Position numbers and translations under genes: made by a program
The notes under the pieces: model-generated
Databases searched by the model: none
The model's input: the letters and a program-made list of their open reading frames with translations, nothing else
What the model was told of the DNA's origin: nothing
Source: a virus
Strand: one strand, 5' to 3'
Length of the DNA: 26,250 nucleotides
Virus record (IMG/VR): IMGVR_UViG_3300039106_000528
Span: 1-26,250 of that record
Shown: positions 6,754 to 26,026 of the stretch, in pieces
How the letters are laid out: each line of letters begins with the position of its first letter
Position numbering within the stretch: the stretch's first letter is position 1

Positions 6754-6985
6754 TTTGGGTCTCCTCTATTCGCTTGCGGTCTATAGATAAATTATATGTC
6801 ATAGCGTATAGATCTGTCAAGCAGTCCATATATCCCTCGGCATATTGCCAATCCTCAAACTCTTTGCTCTCCCATTCAAGAATAAGATTCTTAAGTTCTC
6901 CATGCATTATATCGATTAATGGGATAGAGGTGTCCTCTAATGCTTTAGTTAAATGTTCTGGTATAAAGGGATACTTCTCACTCAT
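6746..6985 (-). CDS. 79-aa helical protein
   Basis: Begins MSEKYPFIPEHLTKALEDTS, with a stretch WQYAEGYMDCLTDLYAMTYN typical of a small helical bundle. It overlaps both neighbours by 8 bp. No family is recognised. Confidence 0.6.
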   Translation of the reverse strand: MSEKYPFIPEHLTKALEDTSIPLIDIMHGELKNLILEWESKEFEDWQYAEGYMDCLTDLYAMTYNLSIDRKRIEETQNA

Positions 6986-7187
6986 TGATTGCCCACTCTC
7001 CTTGATTGCTTTGTTCCATTATATCGAGAGCCACTGACAAGAGGTGCTGAGTTGCGTGAATCTGCCCTGAGACAAATTCCCAATCTACAGATTCATCTCC
7101 AACTGTAGCCACGGTCTCATCTCTATCCTGTTCTAAACTAATTAGATGTACCTTCATATATTCTATAAAGCGTGATGATTTAGTCAT
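6978..7187 (-). CDS. 69-aa helical protein
   Basis: Begins MTKSSRFIEYMKVHLISLEQ; mid-part DWEFVSGQIHATQHLLSVAL resembles small phage proteins with a WxFxxGxxxxxxxLL helix. It resembles its downstream neighbour (xxxxYAEGYMDCLTDL) in overall plan. TAATG overlap with the 29-aa gene. Function unknown. Confidence 0.6.
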   Translation of the reverse strand: MTKSSRFIEYMKVHLISLEQDRDETVATVGDESVDWEFVSGQIHATQHLLSVALDIMEQSNQGEWAINE

Positions 7188-7276
7188 TAGTCCCCCTGAT
7201 TAACTAAATAAGCACGGACTTCTTCAAGGGTATTAATTGATTCCTCACACATTACAATAAGATCTTCTCTAGTCAT
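7187..7276 (-). CDS. 29-aa peptide, TAATG-coupled at both ends
   Basis: The peptide (MTREDLIVMCEESINTLEEV plus RAYLVNQGD) is one amphipathic acidic helix. Start and stop each overlap the neighbour by TAATG. It also carries a GGGGGAC ribosome-like site for the next gene. Confidence 0.5.
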   Translation of the reverse strand: MTREDLIVMCEESINTLEEVRAYLVNQGD

Positions 7277-7416
7277 TAGTCAAAGTACCCTTCTGCCCAT
7301 AGACCGTCAAGAAAGTCTAATGCTTTATTAATTGCGGCTACATCTTCACCACTTGCCTCAATACCACAAAGACCGCTAATGATATCTTGAAATTGTTCTT
7401 TAGTATAACCTAACAT
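7276..7416 (-). CDS. 46-aa small protein
   Basis: The frame is open from 7473, but ATG at 7416 overlaps the upstream stop (TAATG) and has a GGGGAGAG ribosome site. The product (MLGYTKEQFQDIISGLCGIE ...) is helical; its tail ALDFLDGLWAEGYFD is acidic and aromatic. No family is recognised. Confidence 0.6.
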   Translation of the reverse strand: MLGYTKEQFQDIISGLCGIEASGEDVAAINKALDFLDGLWAEGYFD

Positions 7417-7577
7417 TACTCTCCCCAGTACTTGACAATAGTGTTCATGGTAGTATGTATTTGACAGTAGCATTCTCCACCATTCATGTTGTCCATGAAA
7501 TCAAAGTGAGAGTAGTGGTCTTCATAGATAGCCTCTATGAGTTCTGATATTGTGTATGGTCTATGTCTTGTTGTCAT
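7416..7577 (-). CDS. 53-aa small protein
   Basis: The frame extends upstream to 7619, but ATG at 7577 is supported twice: it overlaps the stop of the 141-aa gene (ATGA), and a PafBC-like promoter places TACAAT six bases before it. The product begins MTTRHRPYTISELIEAIYED. It could thus be translated both by coupling and from a leaderless damage-inducible mRNA. Function unknown. Confidence 0.65.
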   Translation of the reverse strand: MTTRHRPYTISELIEAIYEDHYSHFDFMDNMNGGECYCQIHTTMNTIVKYWGE

Positions 7578-7999
7578 ACTTCTATTGTATCTTTGACCAC
7601 TGACATTTTGCTCTGCCATAGGGAACAGTTATTATCTAGTCTGTCTCCAAAGACACGGACATAGTCTGAGATATCCTCTGTTTGATCTGTTAGACATTCT
7701 TTGACTGTATCTACTGAAATAAAGACTCTTCCATTCCATAGACCCATAGCACCGATGTTTGTTGGTACTTCTAGACAACCAAATGTGTCTTGCTCCCAGC
7801 CAACACCCTCTGAACAAACCAAGGCATACTTATTGTCGCCGTATACATTTTTTTCTTCAAGGGTAATGAACAATAAATTATCTACAGTACATTCACTAAA
7901 GTCGCTACTATACTGTAGATTATAGATTCCATTAGCGATTACTGCTAACTTCTTGCCGTCAACTATCTGACCGATATATCCTTTGGATCTTTCTCTCAT
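7574..7999 (-). CDS. 141-aa hypothetical protein, first gene of early operon
   Basis: A mixed alpha/beta protein (MRERSKGYIGQIVDGKKLAV ... SLWQSKMSVVKDTIEV). An AAAGGAAAC ribosome site precedes the ATG, and a promoter lies at 8032-8060. It leads some twelve overlapping genes down to 4941. Its last codons also encode a PafBC-like promoter element. No family is recognised. Confidence 0.65.
   Translation of the reverse strand: MRERSKGYIGQIVDGKKLAVIANGIYNLQYSSDFSECTVDNLLFITLEEKNVYGDNKYALVCSEGVGWEQDTFGCLEVPTNIGAMGLWNGRVFISVDTVKECLTDQTEDISDYVRVFGDRLDNNCSLWQSKMSVVKDTIEV
7584..7606 (-). promoter_or_regulatory. PafBC-like promoter inside 141-aa gene
   Basis: ATGTCAGTG, 8 bp, TACAAT on the minus strand. 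Matches the RecA-NDp motif TTGTCRGTG-N8-TANNNT at every position but the first. The -10 is six bases before the ATG at 7577. Confidence 0.55.
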
Positions 8000-8031
8000 T
8001 GGTGTTTCCTTTGGTTAGTAGGTATATATTA

Positions 8032-8060
8032 ATTGTACCCGAACTGGGAAAAAATAGCAA
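8032..8060 (-). promoter_or_regulatory. Promoter of the long early operon
   Basis: TTGCTA (8055-8060), 17 bp, TACAAT (8032-8037). Just upstream are two copies of CTAMCGTAATARGGTTT (from 8061 and from 8094, 33 bp apart), a likely operator; related CGTAAT elements occur in the 3.7-4.3 kb repeat tract. Confidence 0.6.
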
Positions 8061-8141
8061 CTACCGTAATAGGGTTTTGGGAAAAATCTCACACTAACGT
8101 AATAAGGTTTGTAACAAAATGTTATGAACCCGGCCCACTTG

Positions 8142-8215
8142 CGAAGCGTACGGGACTTGAACCCGTGATCTCTACCGTGACAGGGTAGCGCATTAACCAA
8201 CTATGCTAACGCTCC
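8142..8215 (-). tRNA. tRNA-Asp (anticodon GTC)
   Basis: A complete 74-nt cloverleaf. The acceptor stem is GGAGCGT/ACGCTTC (one G-U pair). The D-arm is GCAT/ATGC with an AGTTGGTTA loop. The anticodon stem CTACC/GGTAG holds the loop CTGTCAC, giving anticodon GTC. The T-stem is ACGGG/CCCGT with loop TTCAAGT. Discriminator G; the CCA end is not encoded (the DNA reads GCAAG). Asp codons are frequent in the acidic small proteins around it. The GC-rich GGGCCGGGTTC follows its 3' end. Confidence 0.95.
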
Positions 8216-8224
8216 AATTATGGA

Positions 8225-8245
8225 GAGCAGTTTTACATCATGCTC
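8225..8245 (-). terminator. Conserved 3' stem-loop, copy 1
   Basis: GAGCA, 11-nt loop, TGCTC, 12 nt after the DUF932 stop. The same stem-loop with flanking CC...AAAACT in the RNA recurs at 9520-9542, 10072-10094 and 13195-13217, always downstream of a gene. Confidence 0.5.
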
Positions 8246-8256
8246 AGGATTTTTTA

Positions 8257-9279
8257 TTATGTTAGTTGCATAACACCTTGTACAACTTTTAGCAAACGAT
8301 TTTTTTCTGCGTTAATTGCAGGATCAAATCCAGATGCTGATGCAAGGATTGACTCGTTAGAGCCACCTCTTGCGGTACGGTACCAATCAAGGCGCTCAGT
8401 TAGTGCATTGAACGCACCCCAAGCATTACCAGCAATCATTCCGTTATATTCACCAGTGTAAATATCGTTAATCATATCTACCTTGTTTTCCCATTTCTTG
8501 CTTGAACCCTTAGCATCTTTTTCTGGCTTAGGATATGCAGCGAGAATGATTTTGTTGAAGTCAATAGCGGAGACCTCTTTCTCAATCATAGCCTTAGCCA
8601 TAAGATCGAATTCGTCCATGTATGCATTAGCAAGACCAAGAGTCTCACGAGCAATTTGTACTTTACCATTAGCGGTCTGGGTATGGCGTATCTTGAAAGA
8701 TTGCTTGATGCCCTTTTTATTCTTACGACCTACGCCACCAAGCGCAAGGTTAAGAGTATTAGCGCACACAACACGAACAGGTGTAATTGATGCTTGAATA
8801 GCAATCGAGCCGTCGTGTGATGTGTTGATGAGCAAATAAGTTTTAACCTTATCGCTTACACCATTAGGGTCTAGAATTGTCTCACGCTCAAGAGCAAGAG
8901 CGCCGAATACTACACGCCCACCCTTGATCGAGCCAGCGGTCTCCCAACGACCACCACCGTCTAGAATGTTATCACCAAATGAAAATAAATCTTCATTTTG
9001 CAATACATGGTAACGCTCACCAACTACGCCAAGAACATCTGTCTGGGTGTTGTCGGTAGGATTGGTACGCACGACATATTGGTATTCCTTGTCGCTTGTT
9101 AAGTGTGTAGGGATTGGCATATCCTCAAGACGAACATTCCAACCATTTAGATTTGCTGCTGATAGCATTTCTGTAGTTGTTTTTTCCTCAGTGAATACGG
9201 TACCCAATCCATGCCAAGCAGGTTCACGAAATGACGCAAAAGATGCAACGCCGTTTTGATTTTCTAGGTCATGTGCCAT
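8257..9279 (-). CDS. DUF932 / phage-plasmid-like protein (TIGR03299 type)
   Basis: A 340-aa protein of the DUF932 type: the N-terminus (PAWHGLGTVF, 20-29), the GVVGERYHVLQNED segment, and PVRVVCANTLNLAL are hallmarks. The family is common on phages and plasmids; a role in DNA metabolism or anti-defence has been proposed but not shown. The frame is open to 9342, but that extension runs across a PafBC-like promoter at 9314-9336, so ATG at 9279, with an AAAGAGAAAAAC leader, is the start. It forms its own unit, ending at a conserved stem-loop. Confidence 0.85.
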   Translation of the reverse strand: MAHDLENQNGVASFASFREPAWHGLGTVFTEEKTTTEMLSAANLNGWNVRLEDMPIPTHLTSDKEYQYVVRTNPTDNTQTDVLGVVGERYHVLQNEDLFSFGDNILDGGGRWETAGSIKGGRVVFGALALERETILDPNGVSDKVKTYLLINTSHDGSIAIQASITPVRVVCANTLNLALGGVGRKNKKGIKQSFKIRHTQTANGKVQIARETLGLANAYMDEFDLMAKAMIEKEVSAIDFNKIILAAYPKPEKDAKGSSKKWENKVDMINDIYTGEYNGMIAGNAWGAFNALTERLDWYRTARGGSNESILASASGFDPAINAEKNRLLKVVQGVMQLT

Positions 9280-9313
9280 GAGTTTTTCTCTTTTCTGTTT
9301 GTTTGTTAATACA

Positions 9314-9336
9314 ATCATAACACGACCCACCGACAT
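9314..9336 (-). promoter_or_regulatory. PafBC-like promoter of DUF932 gene
   Basis: ATGTCGGTG, 8 bp, TATGAT. A near-complete RecA-NDp motif; transcription would begin near 9307, 28 bases before the ATG. Confidence 0.65.
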
Positions 9337-9400
9337 ATGCAAGCCAGTCTAATTAGATATGGGGCAAATCGGACATTTCTTAAAGTGTCCTTAATCACAT

Positions 9401-9416
9401 TGTGATCTTGATCACG
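9401..9416. promoter_or_regulatory. Crp-like site 1
   Basis: TGTGATCTTGATCACG: TGTGA-N6-TCACG. Centre about 100 bp upstream of the predicted DUF932 transcript start. Confidence 0.55.
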
Positions 9417-9519
9417 GCGGGCCGGGGCAAAAATATGATCAGTTTTAGTTCATGATCAGGAACTTTCACTACCATGTATATGGAATAGTATCCATGTGTA
9501 TGGTTCTTGTGAAACTTAT

Positions 9520-9542
9520 TGAGCAGTTTTGCGACTTACTCA
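9520..9542 (-). terminator. Conserved 3' stem-loop, copy 2 (degenerate)
   Basis: TGAGCA...TACTCA; only TGAG/CTCA pair fully. It follows the coiled-coil gene by about 44 nt. Confidence 0.35.
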
Positions 9543-9585
9543 GGTCGTTAGGGTTCAGGACTTTAAGTTGCCCCCCTAAGTTTAT

Positions 9586-10011
9586 TTACAGATAACGAGC
9601 AACCGCATTGTATGTGGAAGTATTTACAACTTCCTCATCCGTCATCTTTAGAATACGGATAGCGTTTGTGATTTCCTCTTTCTGCTCACGATATTCGTGC
9701 TGACGCAGAAGTTCGTGTTCACGCTCAGGCTCTGTTGGCAGTTCTTTTTCATTGGCTACAATAATATCATAGTCAATGTTTAGTCTGTTATTGTATGAGC
9801 GATAGTTTGTACGGAAGTTTTCAGCCTTCTTGATGTTTGCAATAGCAAACGCCTGAAGTTCCTTGCGCCATTTTTCCATAGCCTTTTCATACTTTGCTTC
9901 GTTGGCTTCTTGTGTTGCGTAGTTTGCTTCTAGTTTAGCGAGTGATGACTCTAACCCTGCGATTACTCGCTGAGTAGGGATTTTTACTGATATTGCTTTG
10001 CCTCTTGACAT
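9586..10011 (-). CDS. 141-aa coiled-coil protein
   Basis: Begins MSRGKAISVKIPTQRVIAGL, then a long Ala/Glu/Lys-rich helix (30-75) and a second charged helix (95-120), so a helical hairpin or coiled coil is likely. An AAAGGAAACC ribosome site and a PafBC-like promoter at 10044-10066 precede it. I do not recognise the family; proteins of this type and size are common hypothetical genes in actinophages. Confidence 0.7.
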   Translation of the reverse strand: MSRGKAISVKIPTQRVIAGLESSLAKLEANYATQEANEAKYEKAMEKWRKELQAFAIANIKKAENFRTNYRSYNNRLNIDYDIIVANEKELPTEPEREHELLRQHEYREQKEEITNAIRILKMTDEEVVNTSTYNAVARYL

Positions 10012-10043
10012 AGGTTTCCTTTTCTTTGGTGGGTTATGTTTCT

Positions 10044-10066
10044 ATTATAGCGGGTGGGTCTGACAT
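10044..10066 (-). promoter_or_regulatory. PafBC-like promoter of coiled-coil gene
   Basis: ATGTCAGAC, 8 bp, TATAAT. Has the TGTCA core and exact spacing; GAC replaces GTG. Confidence 0.6.
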
Positions 10067-10071
10067 TGTGG

Positions 10072-10094
10072 TGAGCAGTTTAGTATCTTGCTCA
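10072..10094 (-). terminator. Conserved 3' stem-loop, copy 3
   Basis: TGAGCA, 11-nt loop, TGCTCA. Lies between the 53-aa SH3-like gene and the promoter of the next gene. Confidence 0.5.
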
Positions 10095-10148
10095 GGATAG
10101 TTCCTGCCACTTATTTAGAGTCGCTGTACATTGGCGACTATGAAAGGC

Positions 10149-10310
10149 TTACGCCTTCCAAGTAGTCCAGCGTGTTGCACCTGCAACATCTAACTTCACA
10201 CGAACTGTGCCGTTAGCGTTTGGCTTGATTTCTGTAATTGTGCCAGTTACCTTTGACTTCTGTGAAGTGTAAGTGTCGCCGACCTTGTATAGTGCTTGTG
10301 CTACTGTCAT
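10149..10310 (-). CDS. 53-aa SH3-like beta-barrel protein
   Basis: The frame opens at 10394, but ATG at 10310 has an AAAAGGAAAC ribosome site and matches the start of its paralogue. The product reads MTVAQALYKVGDTYTSQKSK and VTGTITEIKPNANGTVRVKL, a small all-beta barrel of the kind that binds nucleic acid or protein. It is a clear paralogue of the gene at 10404-10574. Function unknown. Confidence 0.65.
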   Translation of the reverse strand: MTVAQALYKVGDTYTSQKSKVTGTITEIKPNANGTVRVKLDVAGATRWTTWKA

Positions 10311-10403
10311 TTTGTTTCCTTTTCTGTTGTTGGTTATATTTCTAGTATATCTGAAAAATCTCAGAAATACAAATCCATTGGGGAATAATCTCATATTTTG
10401 AGA

Positions 10404-10574
10404 TTACTTAGAAGTCTTTACCATAGCAAAGCGGTGTGCGCCGTTTGCCAAGCGTAATGAAACTCTAGTTAGTTTAGCATTTATTGGGCTGAAGTCTGTA
10501 ATGCGACCAGTAACGCCTGTTTTGCTTGTTGTGAATAGATCACCGATTTGGTAAGTGTATCCGCTTAGTGTCAT
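10404..10574 (-). CDS. 56-aa SH3-like paralogue
   Basis: Reads MTLSGYTYQIGDLFTTSKTG then VTGRITDFSPINAKLTRVSL, matching the neighbour at 10149-10310 in length, GD-x-xTTSKTGVTG-x-ITD core and basic tail. The two probably arose by tandem duplication. ATG at 10574 has an AAAGGCAAAC leader. The promoter at 10615-10644 and a Crp-like site serve both genes. Confidence 0.65.
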   Translation of the reverse strand: MTLSGYTYQIGDLFTTSKTGVTGRITDFSPINAKLTRVSLRLANGAHRFAMVKTSK

Positions 10575-10614
10575 TTGTTTGCCTTTCTTTTGTGGTGGTT
10601 TTTCTTATATTCTA

Positions 10615-10644
10615 ATTCTAGCAAAAAAATATCAAAAATGCCAA
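10615..10644 (-). promoter_or_regulatory. Promoter for SH3-like gene pair
   Basis: TTGGCA (10639-10644), 18 bp, TAGAAT (10615-10620). It lacks the TGTC core seen in the PafBC-like promoters but keeps a Crp-like site upstream. Confidence 0.55.
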
Positions 10645-10663
10645 TTCTAGGGAGGTTTTGGGG

Positions 10664-10679
10664 TGTGTCTTTAATCACA
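10664..10679. promoter_or_regulatory. Crp-like site 2
   Basis: TGTGTCTTTAATCACA; centre about 63 bp upstream of the predicted start, close to the class I Crp position. Confidence 0.6.
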
Positions 10680-10755
10680 TCTTAAAGGCGTGTCGTAACT
10701 TGACAAATGTACTTTTTTGCGCCGGGCTTCCTTGATCACTGATAGATAAACAGAA

Positions 10756-10780
10756 TCAGTAACCAAAGAAGGACCCACCC
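10756..10780 (-). terminator. Possible terminator after GP88 gene
   Basis: On the minus strand ACTGAT, an 11-nt loop, ATCAGT, about 25 nt after the GP88 stop. The stem is short and no U-run follows. Confidence 0.3.
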
Positions 10781-10798
10781 CCACGTATTCATTAAATA

Positions 10799-11530
10799 TT
10801 ATTTCTTAGTTGCAGAGAATACAATATCTGCCTTATTAAATACACACAGTGAACATGATACGCATGCAGATCCTGCATTGCTAATTAATGGAATTGACTT
10901 TAAATTCTCAGGGCACTTTGCACCTGGTTTTGAAGTTAACTCTTTCATGTCTGCTTGACCTATTGCGAAATTTTTTGCAAGGTATGCAAGTTTAACCCCA
11001 TGATCAGTCTTAAGACCAATACCAATAGCCTTATTCTCGCTATCAGTTGAATAGTATAAGGATAGATTAGGAATATCTTTTAGAATGAGGGCCGCAGAGT
11101 TTACTCGTGTGTATACCCAGAATTGAATATCGGGGTTGTGCTCAATAACAAATTTCCATGCATTGGTATAAACATCGTTAAAGAAATCTCCGTCCCAGTG
11201 AATACGGAATAGTTTTGGAGCCTTTTTCTTTTCGCAGTCTTCAATAAACTCATCGATCATTTCAGTGAGCAACATAACCATGGTTAGACCGTCTGCATTA
11301 CGAAGTAGTTCCCAATTGTGGAGCAGATTAACTTTTACGGAAGGGAAGATCTTTTCCAATTTGCCTGCATAGCAAACACTCTCGCAGACAGACGTAGCGC
11401 CAGGACATGAATAAGCCTTACCTGCAGGAAGTCCGAATGTATTGGCAATTGCTGCCTGCTTTCCGTTTTTAGTAACAAGGTTAGCAACCTTTCTATCTTT
11501 TGATCTAAGTAATTTAGTAGTCAAGGCCAA
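10799..11530 (-). CDS. GP88-family protein with Cys clusters
   Basis: A 243-aa protein of the gene product 88 type known from actinophages. The N-terminal block NTFGLPAGKAYSCPGATSVCESVCYAG has C42, C49 and C53. The C-terminus has C206 and CVSCSLC (C223, C226, C229). Such clusters could bind an iron-sulfur centre or zinc. The core (FRIHWDGDFFNDVYTNAWKF, VYTRVNS) looks like an enzyme; the reaction is unknown to me. The start is TTG at 11530 or TTG at 11524, inside the upstream gene; no ATG fits the conserved N-terminus. It is the third gene of a unit with the two small genes upstream. Confidence 0.8.
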   Translation of the reverse strand: MALTTKLLRSKDRKVANLVTKNGKQAAIANTFGLPAGKAYSCPGATSVCESVCYAGKLEKIFPSVKVNLLHNWELLRNADGLTMVMLLTEMIDEFIEDCEKKKAPKLFRIHWDGDFFNDVYTNAWKFVIEHNPDIQFWVYTRVNSAALILKDIPNLSLYYSTDSENKAIGIGLKTDHGVKLAYLAKNFAIGQADMKELTSKPGAKCPENLKSIPLISNAGSACVSCSLCVFNKADIVFSATKK

Positions 11531-11693
11531 GGCTCATTTCTAGAGCAATGTCCTCATTAGTAACGGAGTCCGCTAATTCGCCAAGCCAGCAATGCTCACA
11601 CATAGGCATAAATTCATCACACTGGTTTTCTTTACATTCTGGACAGATATTAGCATAGTAGTCGTCATAGAATTCATCTGCGATATTTCCCAT
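11514..11693 (-). CDS. 59-aa CxxC zinc-finger-like protein
   Basis: Contains CPECKENQC (16-24) and CEHC (31-34), a four-Cys/His zinc site in an acidic context. A perfect AAAGGAG ribosome site in the end of the upstream gene serves ATG at 11693. It overlaps GP88 by 17 bp. Confidence 0.65.
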   Translation of the reverse strand: MGNIADEFYDDYYANICPECKENQCDEFMPMCEHCWLGELADSVTNEDIALEMSLGLDY

Positions 11694-11697
11694 AGGG

Positions 11698-11844
11698 TCA
11701 TTCTCCTTTTTGTTGATATTTTAATTGTAGCATTTGGGTCTGACATTTTTTGCGGTTGTAGACTTTCCTAGAAGGCACAGCAGAGGCAGCATTGCTACGG
11801 CGTAGGTCCATAAGCCTGCGTAATTCCTCTGGTGTTTTCTTCAT
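11698..11844 (-). CDS. 48-aa basic actinophage peptide, leaderless
   Basis: Begins MKKTPEELRRLMDLRRSNAA and continues with a basic, proline-containing tail. Peptides with a KKTPEELRRLMELRRSNAA-like start are a recurring hypothetical gene in actinophages. A leaderless promoter (TTGATA, 17 bp, TAGGAT, six bases, ATG) drives it. The codons for its C-terminus (CQTQMLQL) also contain a PafBC-like promoter for the two genes downstream. Confidence 0.7.
   Translation of the reverse strand: MKKTPEELRRLMDLRRSNAASAVPSRKVYNRKKCQTQMLQLKYQQKGE
11724..11746 (-). promoter_or_regulatory. PafBC-like promoter inside 48-aa gene
   Basis: ATGTCAGAC, 8 bp, TACAAT. It would drive the CxxC gene and GP88 with an AAAGGAG leader of about 20 bases. 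Confidence 0.55.
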
Positions 11845-11850
11845 ATATTA

Positions 11851-11879
11851 ATCCTAGCATACAGGGGAAAAAATATCAA
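11851..11879 (-). promoter_or_regulatory. Leaderless promoter of 48-aa gene
   Basis: TTGATA (11874-11879), 17 bp, TAGGAT (11851-11856) with TGC before it; six bases to the ATG. Confidence 0.7.
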
Positions 11880-11888
11880 CTTCTTAAA

Positions 11889-11904
11889 TGTGATATGCGC
11901 CACA
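11889..11904. promoter_or_regulatory. Crp-like site 3
   Basis: TGTGATATGCGCCACA; centre about 52 bp upstream of the ATG of the leaderless gene. One mismatch in the right arm. Confidence 0.5.
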
Positions 11905-11920
11905 GGCGGGCCGGGCCTAG

Positions 11921-12160
11921 CTAATCCTCATCTATAAAGACATAGAGTTTAAACATATCCTCAAAGGTGCAAACGGTTTCATATGTTTCACCAAAATCAT
12001 TGCGATGTGTAACTATATAGTTATCACCTGTTGCATCATCTATAACGGACAACACTTCAACAATGTCATCATCAACATTAATTAGATCGCCAACCATAAG
12101 TTGAGCGGGAGTCAGTAAGTCAGCGTATACGAATTGCATAGTTTCCATTGTAGCAGTCAT
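11921..12160 (-). CDS. 79-aa conserved-type phage protein
   Basis: The core LMVGDLINVDDDIVEVLSVI and GDNYIVTHRNDFGET reads as a small beta-barrel; very similar short proteins occur as hypothetical genes in actinophages. It ends its operon: a GC-rich GGCCCGGCCCGCC island follows 5 bases after the stop. ATG overlaps the upstream stop (ATGA). Confidence 0.7.
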   Translation of the reverse strand: MTATMETMQFVYADLLTPAQLMVGDLINVDDDIVEVLSVIDDATGDNYIVTHRNDFGETYETVCTFEDMFKLYVFIDED

Positions 12161-12285
12161 TTTACTTCCTCTACTATTACATCATCATAGCCAAATTCAA
12201 TCAACTCTTGCGCCCAATACTCTGCATCTTGCCTGGTAAGATAGTTAGAGTTCATCTCGCTACCGCCACACCATAGGGTATACAT
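12157..12285 (-). CDS. 42-aa conserved-type phage peptide
   Basis: Reads MYTLWCGGSEMNSNYLTRQD then AEYWAQELIEFGYDDVIVEE. The pattern W-x-GG-x-E-x-x-x-x-YLT-x-x-x-A followed by GYDDVxxE is one I associate with actinophage hypothetical proteins. TAATG overlap upstream, ATGA overlap downstream. Confidence 0.65.
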   Translation of the reverse strand: MYTLWCGGSEMNSNYLTRQDAEYWAQELIEFGYDDVIVEEVK

Positions 12286-12593
12286 TAGTCCTCGATCCAC
12301 TCATCAGGAATATCCTCTGCTGGCTGGATAAACCAATTAAGGTGGTGTTGATCTACGATAGCCCTTGCTGGCGCTTGCGTTTCTCCACGGTATAGTATCT
12401 GAAAGTTACCAACCATAGGCATATCTATCATTCGGTCATAGTCCTCATCATAGTATGCGTCAATAGCATCTATGCAAGGTTGCACCATCTCTGCGGGTAC
12501 TGGAGGATAGTGATTACCTTTAAGGTGATAAAGTAATTGTGTTTCCAAGTCTAGCGTTGTCTCTGCTAATCCTATTGCTGTTACTGATCCCAT
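12285..12593 (-). CDS. 102-aa conserved-type actinophage protein
   Basis: The segment TQLLYHLKGNHYPPVPAEMV (18-37), then IDAIDAYYDEDYDRMIDMP and a C-terminal ARAIVDQHHLNWFI, is a recurrent actinophage plan (LLYHL-x-x-NHYPP; A-x-AI-x-x-HHLD). No biochemical function is known to me. It is in the middle of the six-gene operon 13051-11921. Confidence 0.75.
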   Translation of the reverse strand: MGSVTAIGLAETTLDLETQLLYHLKGNHYPPVPAEMVQPCIDAIDAYYDEDYDRMIDMPMVGNFQILYRGETQAPARAIVDQHHLNWFIQPAEDIPDEWIED

Positions 12594-12594
12594 A

Positions 12595-12732
12595 TTATCT
12601 ACCTTCCCAATCTTCGATTACGCCGTCAATAGCATCGTTTATGTCTGCTTCAAATAATTCTAATTCATCTGCACTCATCTTATCTATAAGGGTTGAGTCG
12701 TGATTAGACTTCCAAGTGATAGGGTCTTTCAT
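12595..12732 (-). CDS. 45-aa acidic small protein
   Basis: Reads MKDPITWKSNHDSTLIDKMS then an acidic helix (ADELELFEADINDAIDGVIE). TAATG overlap with the upstream gene; the next ATG follows the stop by one base. Function unknown. Confidence 0.55.
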   Translation of the reverse strand: MKDPITWKSNHDSTLIDKMSADELELFEADINDAIDGVIEDWEGR

Positions 12733-12941
12733 TACTTTACCTTTACCTCTCCGTTACGATAAAAAGTCTTAGTGTACATCTTACCTGTTGGGTCTGACAA
12801 GTTATAGGTTGCGTATTCATATGCGCCACCAAAGTCCACGCACTTATTCCAAGCGTCTACGGCTTCTAGCATATCGCTAACACGCATAGTATAAACAAGT
12901 ACTCCGTCATACGAAGTAGTTAGTGAGTAGTTATATTCCAT
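12732..12941 (-). CDS. 69-aa beta-rich small protein
   Basis: Begins MEYNYSLTTSYDGVLVYTMR and ends KMYTKTFYRNGEVKVK. AAGGAAAC ribosome site; TAATG overlaps on both sides. A match to the PafBC-like motif (TTGTCAGAC, 8 bp, TAAGAT; 12778-12800) lies within its codons but has no clear target. No family is recognised. Confidence 0.6.
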   Translation of the reverse strand: MEYNYSLTTSYDGVLVYTMRVSDMLEAVDAWNKCVDFGGAYEYATYNLSDPTGKMYTKTFYRNGEVKVK

Positions 12942-13051
12942 TAGTTTCCTTCTTTCTTTACAATAATACTAGCAGAGAGGGCTGACAAGGCTTCTACCTT
13001 GCTTGCTTCTCGTTGTGCCTTTACATATTCTTTAAACTGATCTAGGTTCAT
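12941..13051 (-). CDS. 36-aa small protein
   Basis: The peptide (MNLDQFKEYVKAQREASKVE plus ALSALSASIIVKKEGN) is one long helix. It has its own AAGGAAG ribosome site and ends in TAATG with the next gene. Its codons overlap a PafBC-like promoter at 12966-12988, so it may be partly a by-product of that element; the ribosome site argues that it is translated. Confidence 0.5.
   Translation of the reverse strand: MNLDQFKEYVKAQREASKVEALSALSASIIVKKEGN
12966..12988 (-). promoter_or_regulatory. PafBC-like promoter inside 36-aa gene
   Basis: TTGTCAGCC, 8 bp, TAGTAT; about 25 bases upstream of the ATG at 12941. Confidence 0.5.
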
Positions 13052-13082
13052 AGACTTCCTTCTTTCTTAAGTTGATATTTAT

Positions 13083-13105
13083 ATCCTATCACCTATCACT
13101 GACAA
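13083..13105 (-). promoter_or_regulatory. PafBC-like promoter of 36-aa gene operon
   Basis: TTGTCAGTG, 8 bp, TAGGAT. A full match to TTGTCRGTG-N8-TANNNT. Confidence 0.7.
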
Positions 13106-13131
13106 ATGCTAATTTCTAGGGGGTTTTGGGG

Positions 13132-13147
13132 TGTGATCTTAACCACA
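13132..13147. promoter_or_regulatory. Crp-like site 4
   Basis: TGTGATCTTAACCACA; centre about 63 bp upstream of the predicted transcript start. A DnaA box (13158-13166) lies 10 bp further upstream. Confidence 0.6.
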
Positions 13148-13157
13148 CGTAAAGGGT

Positions 13158-13166
13158 TGTGGATAA
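13158..13166 (-). other. DnaA box
   Basis: TGTGGATAA on the plus strand, i.e. TTATCCACA on the minus strand. Confidence 0.55.
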
Positions 13167-13194
13167 CCTGTGGAGGACACGCCGGGCCAAACTT

Positions 13195-13217
13195 TGAGCA
13201 GTTTTAAATCTTGCTCA
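13195..13217 (-). terminator. Conserved 3' stem-loop, copy 4
   Basis: TGAGCA, 11-nt loop, TGCTCA, 11 nt after the stop of the 64-aa gene; a GGCCCGGCG island follows at about 13178. Confidence 0.5.
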
Positions 13218-13227
13218 GGATTTTTAT

Positions 13228-13422
13228 TTAATTTAGGCTAGGAGAAAACTCATCACGATTACATGCAGTGATAAAAACATCTGGTTTAAAATTTGGATTA
13301 TCCTCTGCAAAGTATCCAGCAAACTCATCAACCAAATCGTGATAAGTAAATTCATCACCGATTAAATCTTTATACGATGAAAGAATTTGAGCAACGATTA
13401 CATAGTCTTTGCGAGTCATCAT
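13228..13422 (-). CDS. 64-aa helical protein
   Basis: Begins MMTRKDYVIVAQILSSYKDL and resembles small phage proteins with a YxxVAxxL start and an AxFAxxFxxDNPxFxxxxFxxAC pattern (here EFAGYFAEDNPNFKPDVFIT), known from several phages as an uncharacterised 60-70 aa protein. TAATG overlap with the upstream gene. Confidence 0.65.
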   Translation of the reverse strand: MMTRKDYVIVAQILSSYKDLIGDEFTYHDLVDEFAGYFAEDNPNFKPDVFITACNRDEFSPSLN

Positions 13423-13628
13423 TAGTCGGCCACCTTTAGAATTGCATAAGTGCCCCGCTCATTTATTTCATCTAGTGCAGGTTTAAGAGTTGGTACTAGC
13501 AATTCTTTTAGCATTGACTCAAGCATTAGCACTTGGTCAATTTTTGAAAGTGTAAAGAAGCGTTGTGCTACTGGGTGAGTTTCATCAAATTCTGTAACGA
13601 ATTTTAGTGTGTGCTCTACTTTTTTCAT
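13422..13628 (-). CDS. 68-aa small protein
   Basis: Begins MKKVEHTLKFVTEFDETHPV, then a helix (DQVLMLESMLKELLVPTLKP). An AAAAGGAACAG ribosome site precedes it. A PafBC-like promoter lies upstream at 13701-13723. Function unknown. Confidence 0.6.
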   Translation of the reverse strand: MKKVEHTLKFVTEFDETHPVAQRFFTLSKIDQVLMLESMLKELLVPTLKPALDEINERGTYAILKVAD

Positions 13629-13645
13629 TTTCTGTTCCTTTTCTG

Positions 13646-13789
13646 TTAGTTGTTTTCAGGTGTTGTGAATAGTTGTACGCAAGCGCACTGTACAAGTTTA
13701 ATTGTATCGCCTACCACCGACAAGGTAGCAAGGGTATCGCACTCATCGCATAGGGTTATATATTGCAATTCATCAGATAGGTTGCTCAT
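13646..13789 (-). CDS. 47-aa CxxC small protein
   Basis: Contains CDEC (14-17) and CAC (34-36), a possible metal site. A strong GAGGAGAAC ribosome site precedes ATG at 13789, which overlaps the upstream stop. Codons 22-30 (TLSVVGDTI) coincide with a PafBC-like promoter that would drive the next gene. Confidence 0.55.
   Translation of the reverse strand: MSNLSDELQYITLCDECDTLATLSVVGDTIKLVQCACVQLFTTPENN
13701..13723 (-). promoter_or_regulatory. PafBC-like promoter inside 47-aa gene
   Basis: TTGTCGGTG, 8 bp, TACAAT. A full match, with G at the purine position. Target: the 68-aa gene at 13628. Confidence 0.65.
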
Positions 13790-13950
13790 TAGTTGTTCTC
13801 CTCAAATAGTTCTTTACATTTATTAGGGTTTTCCCAATGGGCTTCGCCCTCATGGTATAGTGCAGGTGCAAGCACTACCTGACCGCATGGGCAAGTATTC
13901 ATCATGCCGAGGGGATAGTGAGTAGCCTTAGCGAAAGTAGTTCGTCTCAT
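13789..13950 (-). CDS. 53-aa zinc-binding-like protein
   Basis: CPCG (20-23), a His pair near 36-40 and C47 (NPNKC) could form one zinc site. TAATG overlaps on both sides. No family is recognised. Confidence 0.55.
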   Translation of the reverse strand: MRRTTFAKATHYPLGMMNTCPCGQVVLAPALYHEGEAHWENPNKCKELFEENN

Positions 13951-14174
13951 TACTCACCAACCTTAACTGCAATAGTCGCATAGAAATCTTTCTGAGGTAG
14001 ATCACCTTTATAGTATGGTGGGCGCACCTTGATTAGATAAGCCTCATAGTTCTCACCATACCAAATTGAGGGGCGAGGTTCTGCCCATGTTATCATTCCG
14101 CTGATATTGCGAGAGTCTGAACGGTAAAACTTTCCGTCTAGTAGTTCTACGATAGAGTATTGTTTAGTTGCCAT
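13950..14174 (-). CDS. 74-aa beta-rich protein
   Basis: The frame opens at GTG 14183, but ATG at 14174 (MATKQYSIVELLDGKFYRSD) has the AAGGAAGTG ribosome site at proper distance. The sequence is beta-rich with many aromatic residues. It is preceded by two PafBC-like promoters and two Crp-like sites in tandem. Function unknown. Confidence 0.65.
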   Translation of the reverse strand: MATKQYSIVELLDGKFYRSDSRNISGMITWAEPRPSIWYGENYEAYLIKVRPPYYKGDLPQKDFYATIAVKVGE

Positions 14175-14203
14175 TATTAGCACTTCCTTTTCTTTATATA
14201 ACT

Positions 14204-14226
14204 ATTTTAGCAGTTATGGCTGACAA
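14204..14226 (-). promoter_or_regulatory. PafBC-like promoter (proximal) of 74-aa gene
   Basis: TTGTCAGCC, 8 bp, TAAAAT. Confidence 0.6.
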
Positions 14227-14263
14227 ATACAAATTCAAATTCGGACATATCAGACATATTTTG

Positions 14264-14279
14264 TGTGAGGTTAATCACA
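14264..14279. promoter_or_regulatory. Crp-like site 5
   Basis: TGTGAGGTTAATCACA, a full TGTGA-N6-TCACA match, centre about 74 bp upstream of the predicted start. An ATTCGGACATAT element (14239-14250) lies between it and the promoter. Confidence 0.65.
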
Positions 14280-14304
14280 TTACTTATGGCGTTATTTAAT
14301 TGTT

Positions 14305-14327
14305 ATAGTAGCAATACTAGCAGACAA
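14305..14327 (-). promoter_or_regulatory. PafBC-like promoter (distal, degenerate) of 74-aa gene
   Basis: TTGTCTGCT, 8 bp, TACTAT. Only the TTGTC core and spacing are kept. Confidence 0.4.
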
Positions 14328-14373
14328 CTTCCAGAAATGCAAATCGACACGCCGTAATTCGGGAAAGTTTTTA

Positions 14374-14389
14374 TGTGTTTCTTATCACA
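14374..14389. promoter_or_regulatory. Crp-like site 6
   Basis: TGTGTTTCTTATCACA; upstream of the distal promoter by about 83 bp. Confidence 0.55.
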
Positions 14390-14422
14390 TGCGACACGCC
14401 CGACTGCGCCGGGCCGCCCCCG

Positions 14423-14512
14423 TTATTCTTTTGCAAATAAATAAATAGAAACAAAAAAACTAATTAGTGAAAAAAATAAAAGTGCATTACCACTTGCGAA
14501 AAAGTTACTCAA
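14423..14512 (-). CDS. 29-aa single-pass membrane peptide (TTG start)
   Basis: The peptide starts MSNFFASGNALLFFSLISFF and continues VSIYLFAKE: one hydrophobic helix of about 18 residues. TTG at 14512 overlaps the TGA of the 57-aa gene (TTGA), typical coupling. Similar in size and design to the peptides at 513-599 and 16406-16483. Function unknown. Confidence 0.5.
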   Translation of the reverse strand: MSNFFASGNALLFFSLISFFVSIYLFAKE

Positions 14513-14682
14513 TTATTTTTCTCCAATTCTAAATCACTTTTAAACATTTCAAAGATTCTTTCTCTTTCACTATCCGCAAGGCTTGCCCATAGGTAACCTG
14601 CTAGATAGTGAACGCCAGTATCCTTATCGTTTCCACGAATTTTATTGCATACGGCTAAAACTTCTTTTGTTTCAATATTCAT
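14509..14682 (-). CDS. 57-aa helical protein
   Basis: Begins MNIETKEVLAVCNKIRGNDK, with a helical middle (AGYLWASLADSERERIFEMF). An AAAGGAG ribosome site is at the end of the upstream gene; TAATG overlap. No family is recognised. Confidence 0.6.
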   Translation of the reverse strand: MNIETKEVLAVCNKIRGNDKDTGVHYLAGYLWASLADSERERIFEMFKSDLELEKNN

Positions 14683-14858
14683 TATTTAACTCCTTTGATA
14701 TGTCCTGAGATACCAAGAGCGTCGCAAGACACTTGCAAGGTAATTGCTTTAGGTAGCGCATTAGGTAGCGCCTTGATATAGTTGTCAGCAAGAGAAGCGG
14801 TAGCAAACTCCACACGCTTAGTGTTACCATTAAACGAAGTCAATTTTACTTGTACCAT
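14682..14858 (-). CDS. 58-aa protein, paralogue of plus-strand gene at 15661
   Basis: Starts MVQVKLTSFNGNTKRVEFAT and ends VSCDALGISGHIKGVK. The plus-strand gene at 15661-15834 has the same frame (VTLTSMLGNTK ... VTCDLLGIDGYLQGV) and length, so the two are diverged copies on either side of the strand switch. A small ubiquitin-like or ferredoxin-like alpha/beta fold is possible. TAATG overlaps on both sides. Confidence 0.65.
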   Translation of the reverse strand: MVQVKLTSFNGNTKRVEFATASLADNYIKALPNALPKAITLQVSCDALGISGHIKGVK

Positions 14859-15016
14859 TACTTAGTACCTACTTTCTTGATTTTATCTGAATACATAGCG
14901 TCAGAGGCGCAATACAATTTGCATTGGCAATTAGTTAAACCTATACGGTTATTCCATAAGATATGGCGATTATATTGCTGAATATAACCTAAGTTATGAG
15001 TGAGGATATTAGTCAT
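14858..15016 (-). CDS. 52-aa Cys-containing protein
   Basis: Begins MTNILTHNLGYIQQYNRHIL; the middle CQCKLYC (30-36) could bind metal. AAAGGGTC ribosome site. First gene after the PafBC-like promoter at 15069-15091, leading a five-gene unit. Function unknown. Confidence 0.6.
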   Translation of the reverse strand: MTNILTHNLGYIQQYNRHILWNNRIGLTNCQCKLYCASDAMYSDKIKKVGTK

Positions 15017-15068
15017 TATTTTGACCCTTTCTAGTTTAAGGTATTTCCTTAACTTTCTTTATATGATA

Positions 15069-15091
15069 AGTATAGCAGGGGGGTCTGACAA
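15069..15091 (-). promoter_or_regulatory. PafBC-like promoter, leftward, of divergent control region
   Basis: TTGTCAGAC, 8 bp, TATACT. The Crp-like site 7 lies about 78 bp upstream of its start. Confidence 0.65.
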
Positions 15092-15132
15092 ATGGACTTG
15101 GACATTAAGGGGTAATTCGGACATATGGGATA

Positions 15133-15148
15133 TGTGATAAGGCTCACA
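15133..15148. promoter_or_regulatory. Crp-like site 7
   Basis: TGTGATAAGGCTCACA, full match. An ATTCGGACATAT element (15115-15126) adjoins it, as at site 5. Confidence 0.65.
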
Positions 15149-15158
15149 TTTCATAAGA

Positions 15159-15202
15159 TCACCCTGTGGATAACTTAAAGTCACCCTGTGGATAACTAAA
15201 TT
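15159..15202. repeat. Two 22-bp direct repeats carrying DnaA boxes
   Basis: TCACCCTGTGGATAACT occurs twice, 22 bp (two helical turns) apart; each copy holds a perfect DnaA box (15165-15173 and 15187-15195). They sit at the centre of the divergent control region. Confidence 0.65.
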
Positions 15203-15214
15203 TTGGCCGGGCTG

Positions 15215-15230
15215 TGTGATGTAACTCACA
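15215..15230. promoter_or_regulatory. Crp-like site 8
   Basis: TGTGATGTAACTCACA, full match, also fits TGTGA-N2-TA-N2-TCACA (the GlxR form). Centre about 74 bp upstream of the rightward start. Confidence 0.65.
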
Positions 15231-15267
15231 AAAATAAATTACGACACGCCCGAGAAAAGGGGTCAAA

Positions 15268-15290
15268 ATGTCAGTGGTAGGTGCTAGAAT
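15268..15290 (+). promoter_or_regulatory. PafBC-like promoter, rightward
   Basis: ATGTCAGTG, 8 bp, TAGAAT. Only plus-strand copy; drives the three-gene unit 15338-15834. Confidence 0.65.
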
Positions 15291-25198: not shown

Positions 25199-26026
25199 AT
25201 GGCAGCAGGCAAGAAATCAGGTAGAAAGTCCCAAGCGTCAAATGACTTTTTGGAACCTTCAAATGTTACAGGCTTGTCAGCTACCGATGTTGGTACATCT
25301 CGTCCTTATTTAGCAACAGCTAATACCACCTCTGCAGCCTCTGCAGCAGGAACTGGAGCAGCAGTATCGCTATCTTGGACATTGCCAGCATTATCTCCAG
25401 CCGCTACATCTTATACAATTACAACAACTCCATCTACATACACTGTTACAACAGGTACTTCAGGTACATCTTATACCTTTCAGGGTCTTGCATCAAATAC
25501 TGCATATACATTTACGGTTCAAGCATCAAATGCCGCAGGATCTTCAACAGGAACTACATCTTCTTCAGTAACAGTCACTACTGTACCAGCAACAATGTCA
25601 GCTCCAACAGCTACCGCAGGTGTAAACTCAAACTCAATTGCTTTTACTGCACCAGCAACTGGTGGTAAAACAATTACTCTCTATACCGTTAATGGTAGCG
25701 ATGGCACAAGCGGTACTGGAGCAACATCTCCAATTGTTATTAACGATACAGCAGGAACTGCTCAGACCTATACTGTTAGAGCAACAAATGCTAATGGTAT
25801 TGGTATAGCCTCTGCTGCTTCAGGATCTGTTACAACTCTTCCTCCGTTCTTTCCTCCGTTCTTCCCTCCGTTCTTTCCTCCGTTCTTCCCACCGTTCTTC
25901 CCACCGTTCTTCCCTCCGTTCTTCCCACCGTTCTTCCCTCCGTTCTTCCCACCGTTCTTCCCTCCGTTCTTCCCACCATCATTTGGTCCATATTTCTACT
26001 ATCCACCATACTTTAGTACTTTCTAA
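25199..26026 (+). CDS. Fibronectin-III protein with C-terminal (PPFF)11 tail
   Basis: A 275-aa protein. After a basic N-terminus (MAAGKKSGRKSQAS) come two fibronectin type III domains (about 42-131 and 133-213) of the sort used for weak sugar or surface binding on virions. Residues 215-258 are eleven PPFF repeats, followed by PPSFGPYFYYPPYFSTF. Such a tail is very unusual: hydrophobic, aromatic and proline-rich, with no basic residues. An AGGAG ribosome site precedes it. The next gene starts 22 bp later and resembles a prolyl hydroxylase. Role unknown; surface adhesion or a hydrophobic plug is possible. Confidence 0.75.
   Translation: MAAGKKSGRKSQASNDFLEPSNVTGLSATDVGTSRPYLATANTTSAASAAGTGAAVSLSWTLPALSPAATSYTITTTPSTYTVTTGTSGTSYTFQGLASNTAYTFTVQASNAAGSSTGTTSSSVTVTTVPATMSAPTATAGVNSNSIAFTAPATGGKTITLYTVNGSDGTSGTGATSPIVINDTAGTAQTYTVRATNANGIGIASAASGSVTTLPPFFPPFFPPFFPPFFPPFFPPFFPPFFPPFFPPFFPPFFPPFFPPSFGPYFYYPPYFSTF
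25841..25972 (+). repeat. Eleven 12-bp tandem repeats encoding PPFF
   Basis: Eleven units of CCN-CCG-TTC-TTY; variation is limited to third positions (CCT/CCA and TTT/TTC). The near identity shows recent expansion or slippage, with frame kept because 12 is a multiple of 3. Confidence 0.9.

Follow-up and report, generated by a model that had tools for sequence, protein, structure and literature searches.

PafBC has so far been described as a regulator of the cell's own repair. Its promoters, defined by the RecA-NDp motif, combine a TGTCRG box near position -26 with a TANNNT -10 element at a fixed distance, often have a weak or absent -35 element, and include that of recA in small-genome actinobacteria; the activator is made constitutively, and single-stranded DNA turns it on. 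Among phages, LexA-controlled promoters tie transcription to the host damage response through release of a repressor, and the Streptomyces phage NootNoot (Stanwilliamsviridae) carries a block of about 10 kb of small early genes, on one strand, in its terminal repeat. Here, we describe an array of RecA-NDp-like sites in a 26,250-base virus record classed as linear (IMG/VR record IMGVR_UViG_3300039106_000528, positions 1 to 26,250; the window, that is, the whole stretch analyzed). The best explanation, which we consider probable, is that the host RNA polymerase uses the promoters of its early gene block with PafBC as activator. The damage link would be common to these promoters and the LexA-controlled ones, whereas the main element here is an activator box. 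Unlike the described PafBC promoters, these are borne by phages in arrays, nearly all in one early block; half of those in the window lack the GTG of the motif, and many have a CRP/GlxR-like palindrome upstream. The promoter type is thereby known, and its owner, a phage, and its arrangement are new; among the papers listed by a literature search, with most subscription journals outside its coverage, none joins PafBC or RecA-NDp with phage promoters.

The window contains 12 matches to TGTCRG-N10-TANNNT, as opposed to 0.44 on average, and never more than 3, when the sequence was dinucleotide-shuffled 200 times, by which a chance origin of the array is rejected. Eleven lie on the minus strand (7018-15090) and one on the plus strand (15269), and among spacings of 4 to 21 only N10 gave more than four sites per strand. 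A first-pass annotation, made from the sequence alone, had listed eleven promoters of this kind; all eleven sites are present where it placed them, and the shuffles bear out its expectation of an excess over random sequence. As promoters, nine of them are firm by sequence (9314, 10044, 11724, 12966, 13083, 13701, 14204, 15069 and the plus-strand 15269). The site at 14305 was dropped, as it reads TGTCTG rather than TGTCRG and has the context TTGCAT-N17-TAGTAT, resembling a sigma promoter family of the relatives. Those at 7584 and 12778 are doubted because both overlap coding sequence; the latter was rejected as a promoter, since it lies inside a 69-codon open reading frame (ORF) whose coding sequence persists in a box-less relative. 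With the same reserve we add 7018, so that 7018 and 7584 are two further possible promoters. The sites are:

7018 to 7039, minus strand: full RecA-NDp site TTGTCAGTG-N8-TATAAT, with an ATG 32 base pairs (bp) on; overlaps the 3' end of ORF 6978-7187; absent from the first-pass list.
7584 to 7605, minus strand: TGTCAGTGG box with its -10, overlapping the end of ORF 7574-7999 and therefore doubtful.
9314 to 9335, minus strand: hybrid promoter of the DUF932 gene with a TTGCAT -35, N17 spacer, TGTCGG box and TATGAT; start codon 34 bp past the -10.
10044 to 10065, minus strand: TGTCAGACCC box and TATAAT, without a -35; predicted promoter of ORF 9586-10011.
11724 to 11745, minus strand: TGTCAGACCC box and TACAAT, without a -35, 30 bp ahead of the ATG of a 59-codon ORF (MGNIAD...).
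12778 to 12799, minus strand: pattern match within ORF 12732-12941, probably no promoter.
12966 to 12987, minus strand: TGTCAGCCC box and TAGTAT; ATG of ORF 12732-12941 24 bp on.
13083 to 13104, minus strand: full RecA-NDp site TTGTCAGTG-N8-TAGGAT, with a 9/10 CRP-like palindrome centered at -63.5.
13701 to 13722, minus strand: full RecA-NDp site TTGTCGGTG-N8-TACAAT; ATG of ORF 13422-13628 72 bp past the -10.
14204 to 14225, minus strand: TGTCAGCCA box and TAAAAT; ATG of a 74-codon ORF 29 bp on.
14305 to 14326, minus strand: rejected site TGTCTG, better read as a TTGCAT-N17-TAGTAT sigma promoter.
15069 to 15090, minus strand: TGTCAGACCCCCCTGCTATACT, matching the ACC consensus of the relatives.
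15269 to 15290, plus strand: TGTCAGTGG box and TAGAAT, predicted divergent promoter heading the early block.

The full TTGTCRGTG is found at three of the 12 sites: 13083 and 13701, as had been claimed, and 7018 as a third. TGTCRGTG is present at six, the remaining half being without GTG. A scripted search placed an ATG with a Shine-Dalgarno-like stretch 22-52 bases past the -10 at 8/12 sites, at 72 bases for 13701 and at 45 for the doubtful 12778; it found no start so preceded after 9314 and 7584, although the DUF932 start does follow 9314.

No record near-identical to the window was found in the phage collection. A DUF932 protein search of viral_contigs recovered 407 relatives, from which 80 IMG/VR loci were kept. 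In these the pattern occurs 613 times at N10, with at least one site in 79 of the 80 loci (none in L079), while other spacings from 4 to 19 gave 6 to 203 sites. The second peak of 203, at N16, we attribute to base conservation downstream of the -10. Even two relatives in genome_contigs whose DUF932 proteins are only 53-54% identical (L139 and L140) bear the array. Relatives and window together supply 414 distinct sites, a count of distinct sequences rather than events among loci that are not independent. Leaving free the two letters after TGTC in TGTC-N12-TANNNT gave 675 distinct matches, with AG in 377 and GG in 47, versus 64 and 15 among 1,325 matches at seven other spacings. With GNTANNNT required, single changes in TGTCAG cut 288 distinct sites to at most 13, the exception being A to G with 26; thus TGTCAG is nearly invariant base by base at its fixed spacing. 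Further, position 28 is A in 325/414 sites and the pair TA occupies positions 27-28 in 248, which implies that the conserved A marks a predicted +1, seven bases past the -10 (in the window 10037, 13076, 14197, 15062 and 15297 for the promoters at 10044, 13083, 14204, 15069 and 15269). This would put TGTCAG at -28 to -23, the PafBC position: PafBC engages a -26 motif, according to PMC11804915. Of the 348 start codons scored, 221 lie 20-29 nucleotides after the predicted transcript start; 66/414 sites have none.

The first-pass annotation had further held that a good -35 is lacking. This applies to most sites; the promoter at 9314 is otherwise, with TTGCAT-N17-TATGAT, and TTG occupies the -35 position in 150 of the 414 distinct sites, leaving 264 without, and in all 35 of the relatives' sites ahead of MAHDLE/VAHDLE starts. 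An extended -10, with G at position 14, marks 74% of the 414. Orthologous promoters of three genes show an exchange: in some TGTCAG accompanies a weaker -35, in others TGTCAG is missing and the -35 is stronger, the -10 being similar, as for the YKVGD gene, where TGTCAGTAGGAAATGTTATACT stands against TTGACA-N18-TATACT in orthologues. The mean number of -35 matches, for a -10 picked by a score that includes box and -35 and so favors such an outcome, is 3.18 with the box (39 promoters) against 5.00 without (2) for the MGNIAD gene, 4.13 (31) against 4.67 (48) for the YKVGD gene, 4.12 (74) against 4.83 (12) for the DUF932 gene and 2.86 (35) against 3.00 (9) for a coil gene, of which 34/78 promoters have no usable -10. 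By the rule used, 45/73 GP88 promoters have neither element. From the exchange among orthologues we conclude that TGTCAG would stand in for the -35, as the site of a sigma-adapting activator should. This natural exchange also offers a ready-made test of sigma adaptation. As a separate observation, a strong-looking TTGACT-N17-TAGTAT promoter family heads the early block on the minus strand of L085, L069 and L082.

The claim that the sites occupy the early region holds beyond the window. When 20 larger phage records were read as circles, 128 of 135 strict sites (those with G before the -10; 2 to 14 per record; the reversed pattern gave 4 in total) fell in one 14-kb stretch per record, which makes up 0.15 of the sequence. 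In NootNoot the exact direct terminal repeat of 10,787 bases (the first 10.8 kb) holds DUF932 and GP88 genes homologous to those of this block. Contigs G001 and G018 show no end repeat at the contig ends. By the homology with the NootNoot terminal-repeat genes, the array probably lies in the first DNA to enter the cell. Unlike the phages studied here, NootNoot has early genes with mostly a TTG -35, a TAGACT -10 and TGTCC, no TGTCRG array and, in two stretches read, no CRP-like palindrome. Its repeat (L127:1-10787) has 7 TGTC at N12 versus 0-3 at other spacings, and the TGTCC, at the same distance from TAGACT and mostly joined by a TTG -35, may represent a related -26 element in Streptomyces phages. 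Between the early genes in the window (14345-15250) and in L127 there are also repeated GCGTGTCG (CGACACGC) and TGTCCGA (CGGACA) elements, the latter being present in the NootNoot terminal repeat.

An actinobacterial link, as had been proposed, is upheld on two grounds. WhiB, which PMC10202952 describes as occurring only and universally in Actinobacteriota, is encoded in 10/10 large relatives, supporting the view that these phages infect actinobacteria. Further, alignment of DUF932 identified three relatives in bacterial assemblies, the closest of which (83% identical; L138) lies in an actinobacterial bin, G021, and the genomes around this bin have both PafBC and its box. The full RecA-NDp motif is found in 41/60 of them (104 summed sites versus 8 for the reversed pattern), WYL proteins are present in 59/60 with genes in neighboring pairs, and one such pair matches the PafB and PafC chains of solved PafBC complexes (2.2e-46 and 6.6e-29); NCBIfam has no family under the names PafB or PafC. 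Perfect LexA boxes occur in 37 of 39 genomes searched. We collected 30 recA loci (L341-L370), 23 of them from small genomes, and set aside three with less than 100 bp upstream. In 16 of the remaining 20, TGTCRG-N10-TANNNT precedes a LexA box, the letters after TGTCRG being TGG in 9, TGC in 5, CCC in 1 and TAC in 1; recA of seven larger genomes has the box in 5, none in 1 and an unreadable upstream region in 1. The NCC form gives 43 matches versus 7 reversed in the 60 genomes, divided into 16 versus 3 (ACC 0) for the nearest 37 and 27 versus 4 (ACC 11/27) for the other 23, which are larger actinobacterial genomes; CCC, TCC and TAC also follow TGTCRG at recA or other sites of the small-genome lineage. 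Over 1.2 Mb, G037 has six N10 sites, which does not exceed other spacings (1 to 12); five lie no more than 60 bases from an ORF start, with a LexA box at two of the five. With six matches in 1.2 Mb, the idea that the pattern is the host-like lineage's general housekeeping promoter is rejected. Jointly, the recA loci, the NCC counts and the rarity in G037 point to the TGTCRG box being a damage promoter of this lineage, rare there and tolerant of changes in GTG. We infer that the phages and their hosts are freshwater organisms.

Other bacterial-type control sites surround the boxes. Perfect CRP/GlxR-type palindromes, TGTGA-N6-TCACA, are present in 80 of 81 loci, 349 in all (scrambled versions gave 4 and 2), and the DnaA-box sequence TTATCCACA occurs 412 times (12 and 18 for scrambled controls; 81 loci). 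Among 498 distinct boxed promoters, 221 match the palindrome at 8-10 of its 10 letters between -100 and -50, the activating distance of a CRP/GlxR-activated promoter; control stretches gave 7 and 2 of 498. The perfect palindromes peak at -64.5 (30), -74.5 (14) and -83.5 to -85.5 (25), and others are found around -150 to -225; class I CRP sites typically lie at the nearer of these positions. Three promoters of the window have perfect palindromes and two have 9/10 matches. These sites, the early genes discussed above and a tRNA gene are placed as follows:

14264 to 14279: perfect CRP/GlxR-type palindrome, centered at -74.5 of the 14204 promoter.
15133 to 15148: perfect CRP/GlxR-type palindrome, centered at -78.5 of the 15069 promoter.
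15215 to 15230: perfect CRP/GlxR-type palindrome, centered at -74.5 of the 15269 promoter.
15165 to 15173 and 15187 to 15195, minus strand: two DnaA-box sequences.
8257 to 9279, minus strand: DUF932 gene (phrog_1221), an early gene with homologues in Streptomyces phages.
10799 to 11530, minus strand: GP88-family early gene (PF17338).
8141 to 8215, minus strand: tRNA-Asp (GTC), within the early block.

Perfect LexA boxes, ten in all, were found in 9 of the 81 loci and none in the window; across 2.16 Mb CGAACA-N2-TGTTCG is matched perfectly 16 times and with one mismatch 4 times. Those upstream in the early block of relatives are:

L009:2575, L021:3358, L054:3476, L069:3355, L075:3121 and L077:3779: perfect LexA boxes.
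L080:3474, L082:3411 and 3579, L085:1704 and L140:6044: perfect LexA boxes.

Several of them sit in a conserved element flanked on both sides by ATGAGCSTASCAAATAAG. With CRP/GlxR-like palindromes and DnaA boxes accompanying the PafBC-type boxes, the early promoters probably respond to more than damage. In contig G001, no CRP family match was found in 116 of the 118 ORFs of at least 90 amino acids (two large ones being left out), with 74 of these represented by the best 25 of 40 families, which leaves room for a weak match.

We posit that the host's housekeeping RNA polymerase would read the early promoters with the aid of PafBC, which would dock on TGTCAG at about -26 and so replace the missing -35 by sigma adaptation. 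The trigger might be single-stranded DNA, formed where the phage DNA enters or begins to replicate or left by earlier damage to the cell, and the CRP/GlxR- and DnaA-like sites may modulate the block. The first-pass annotation is thus confirmed in its observation and partly supported in its interpretation; that sensing of DNA damage is the purpose of the array, as it proposed, is something we likewise infer. Several observations weigh against PafBC as the reader. The sites were gathered by the pattern itself, so that its fixed letters are no independent evidence. A -35 TTG accompanies the box at the 150 sites mentioned, DUF932 promoters mostly have both elements, the coil gene shows no exchange, and the scoring of the -10 favors the exchange where it is seen. 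The closest binned relative, L138 (4.7 kb), is box-less, with TTGACA-N17 promoters at its GP88 and DUF932 genes, and in 12 cultured actinophages that encode a DUF932 protein, NootNoot among them, the box is at chance level (12 versus 7 reversed). On the host side, the N10 count of G037 does not stand out, and recA lacks the PafBC box in four genomes (L356, L357, L360 and L361), among them G021 and G037, which keep the LexA box there despite its absence. Two of the three binned relatives are in bins labeled Methylophilaceae and cyanobacterium, which we take for misbinning. The long ACCCC form WTGTCAGACCCCNNTGCTANANT has no match in genome_contigs, a zero that is partly a matter of strictness because the phage contigs L139 and L140 have near forms outside its pattern; a slightly shorter form occurs in at least 120 stretches of viral_contigs. 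CRP/GlxR-like palindromes are absent from the 1.2 Mb of G037 and 853 kb of further loci of the lineage and its neighbors, where the regulator gene was not searched for, and L138, binned in G021, has one. The absence from the host-like lineage therefore implies either another actinobacterial host or a phage protein using the palindromes, and the small-genome lineage may not be the phage's host.

Some of these points bear on a rival that we regard as rather unlikely, namely that an activator other than PafBC but mimicking it uses this -26 box, be it a phage protein of an unfamiliar family or a different host regulator. It draws on the ACC form, common in the phages (88/414 distinct sites) and unseen at the sites of the nearest 37 genomes, on the differently continued TGTC (TGTCC) at the same distance in the NootNoot repeat, on the WhiB of the ten phages, and on SiwR, another WYL regulator acting at -26; however, the SiwR site is an imperfect palindrome with GGA at -26 (both as given in PMC10693628), and the ACC forms do appear in the larger actinobacterial genomes. 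A phage-encoded WYL regulator or Sigma70_r2 sigma factor is rejected, with matches to each in 0/20 large phage records, which may be fragments, and early promoters must fire before phage proteins exist, unless such proteins are carried in. Moreover, TGTCRG is already the recA damage box of the host-like lineage. The related suggestion that the phage uses its own variant, made from the copies with GAC or GCC in place of GTG, fares poorly: CCC, TCC and TAC belong to the lineage and ACC to the other 23 genomes, only the long form WTGTCAGACCCCNNTGCTANANT being without a match in genome_contigs. A further reading, which we consider very unlikely, takes them for standard constitutive sigma-A promoters whose -10 is extended and in which TGTCAG is inherited baggage or a minor upstream contact. 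The frequent G at position 14 and the 150 sites with a -35 TTG are what it would predict; nevertheless, it leaves unaccounted for six near-invariant bases at a fixed spacing, the 264 sites without the TTG, and the mean -35 matches with and without the box given above, the scoring of which favors this outcome. The many copies of three host-type sites around one block could also be a sponge drawing host regulators off the chromosome, with promoter activity secondary. This is extremely unlikely: the boxes lie at promoter distance from start codons, with a conserved -10 and +1, the strict ones are few per record, and PafBC without RNA polymerase does not bind its promoter DNA (PMC11804915).

If the early block is indeed read with PafBC, the host could not easily drop the alarm without losing repair, and the outcome of infection would depend on the DNA damage of the cell. 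In broader terms, a damage switch ahead of many early genes, often joined by further control sites of bacterial type, suggests a virus that gauges the condition of its cell prior to starting. We tentatively extend this to an early block acting as a decision board, on which PafBC boxes report single-stranded DNA or damage, CRP/GlxR palindromes nutrients and DnaA boxes replication, with some LexA boxes added; several global host regulators might then jointly gate entry into the lytic program, and on a change of host related phages might swap activator-dependent for constitutive promoters. Elsewhere in the window, an ORF at 25199-26026 ends in a long FFPPFFPP repeat. The large relative G001 (L128-L133) codes for RecA, a DNA polymerase III alpha subunit, a B12-type ribonucleotide reductase, a P450 and a carbamoyltransferase, along with five 2OG-Fe(II) oxygenase matches.

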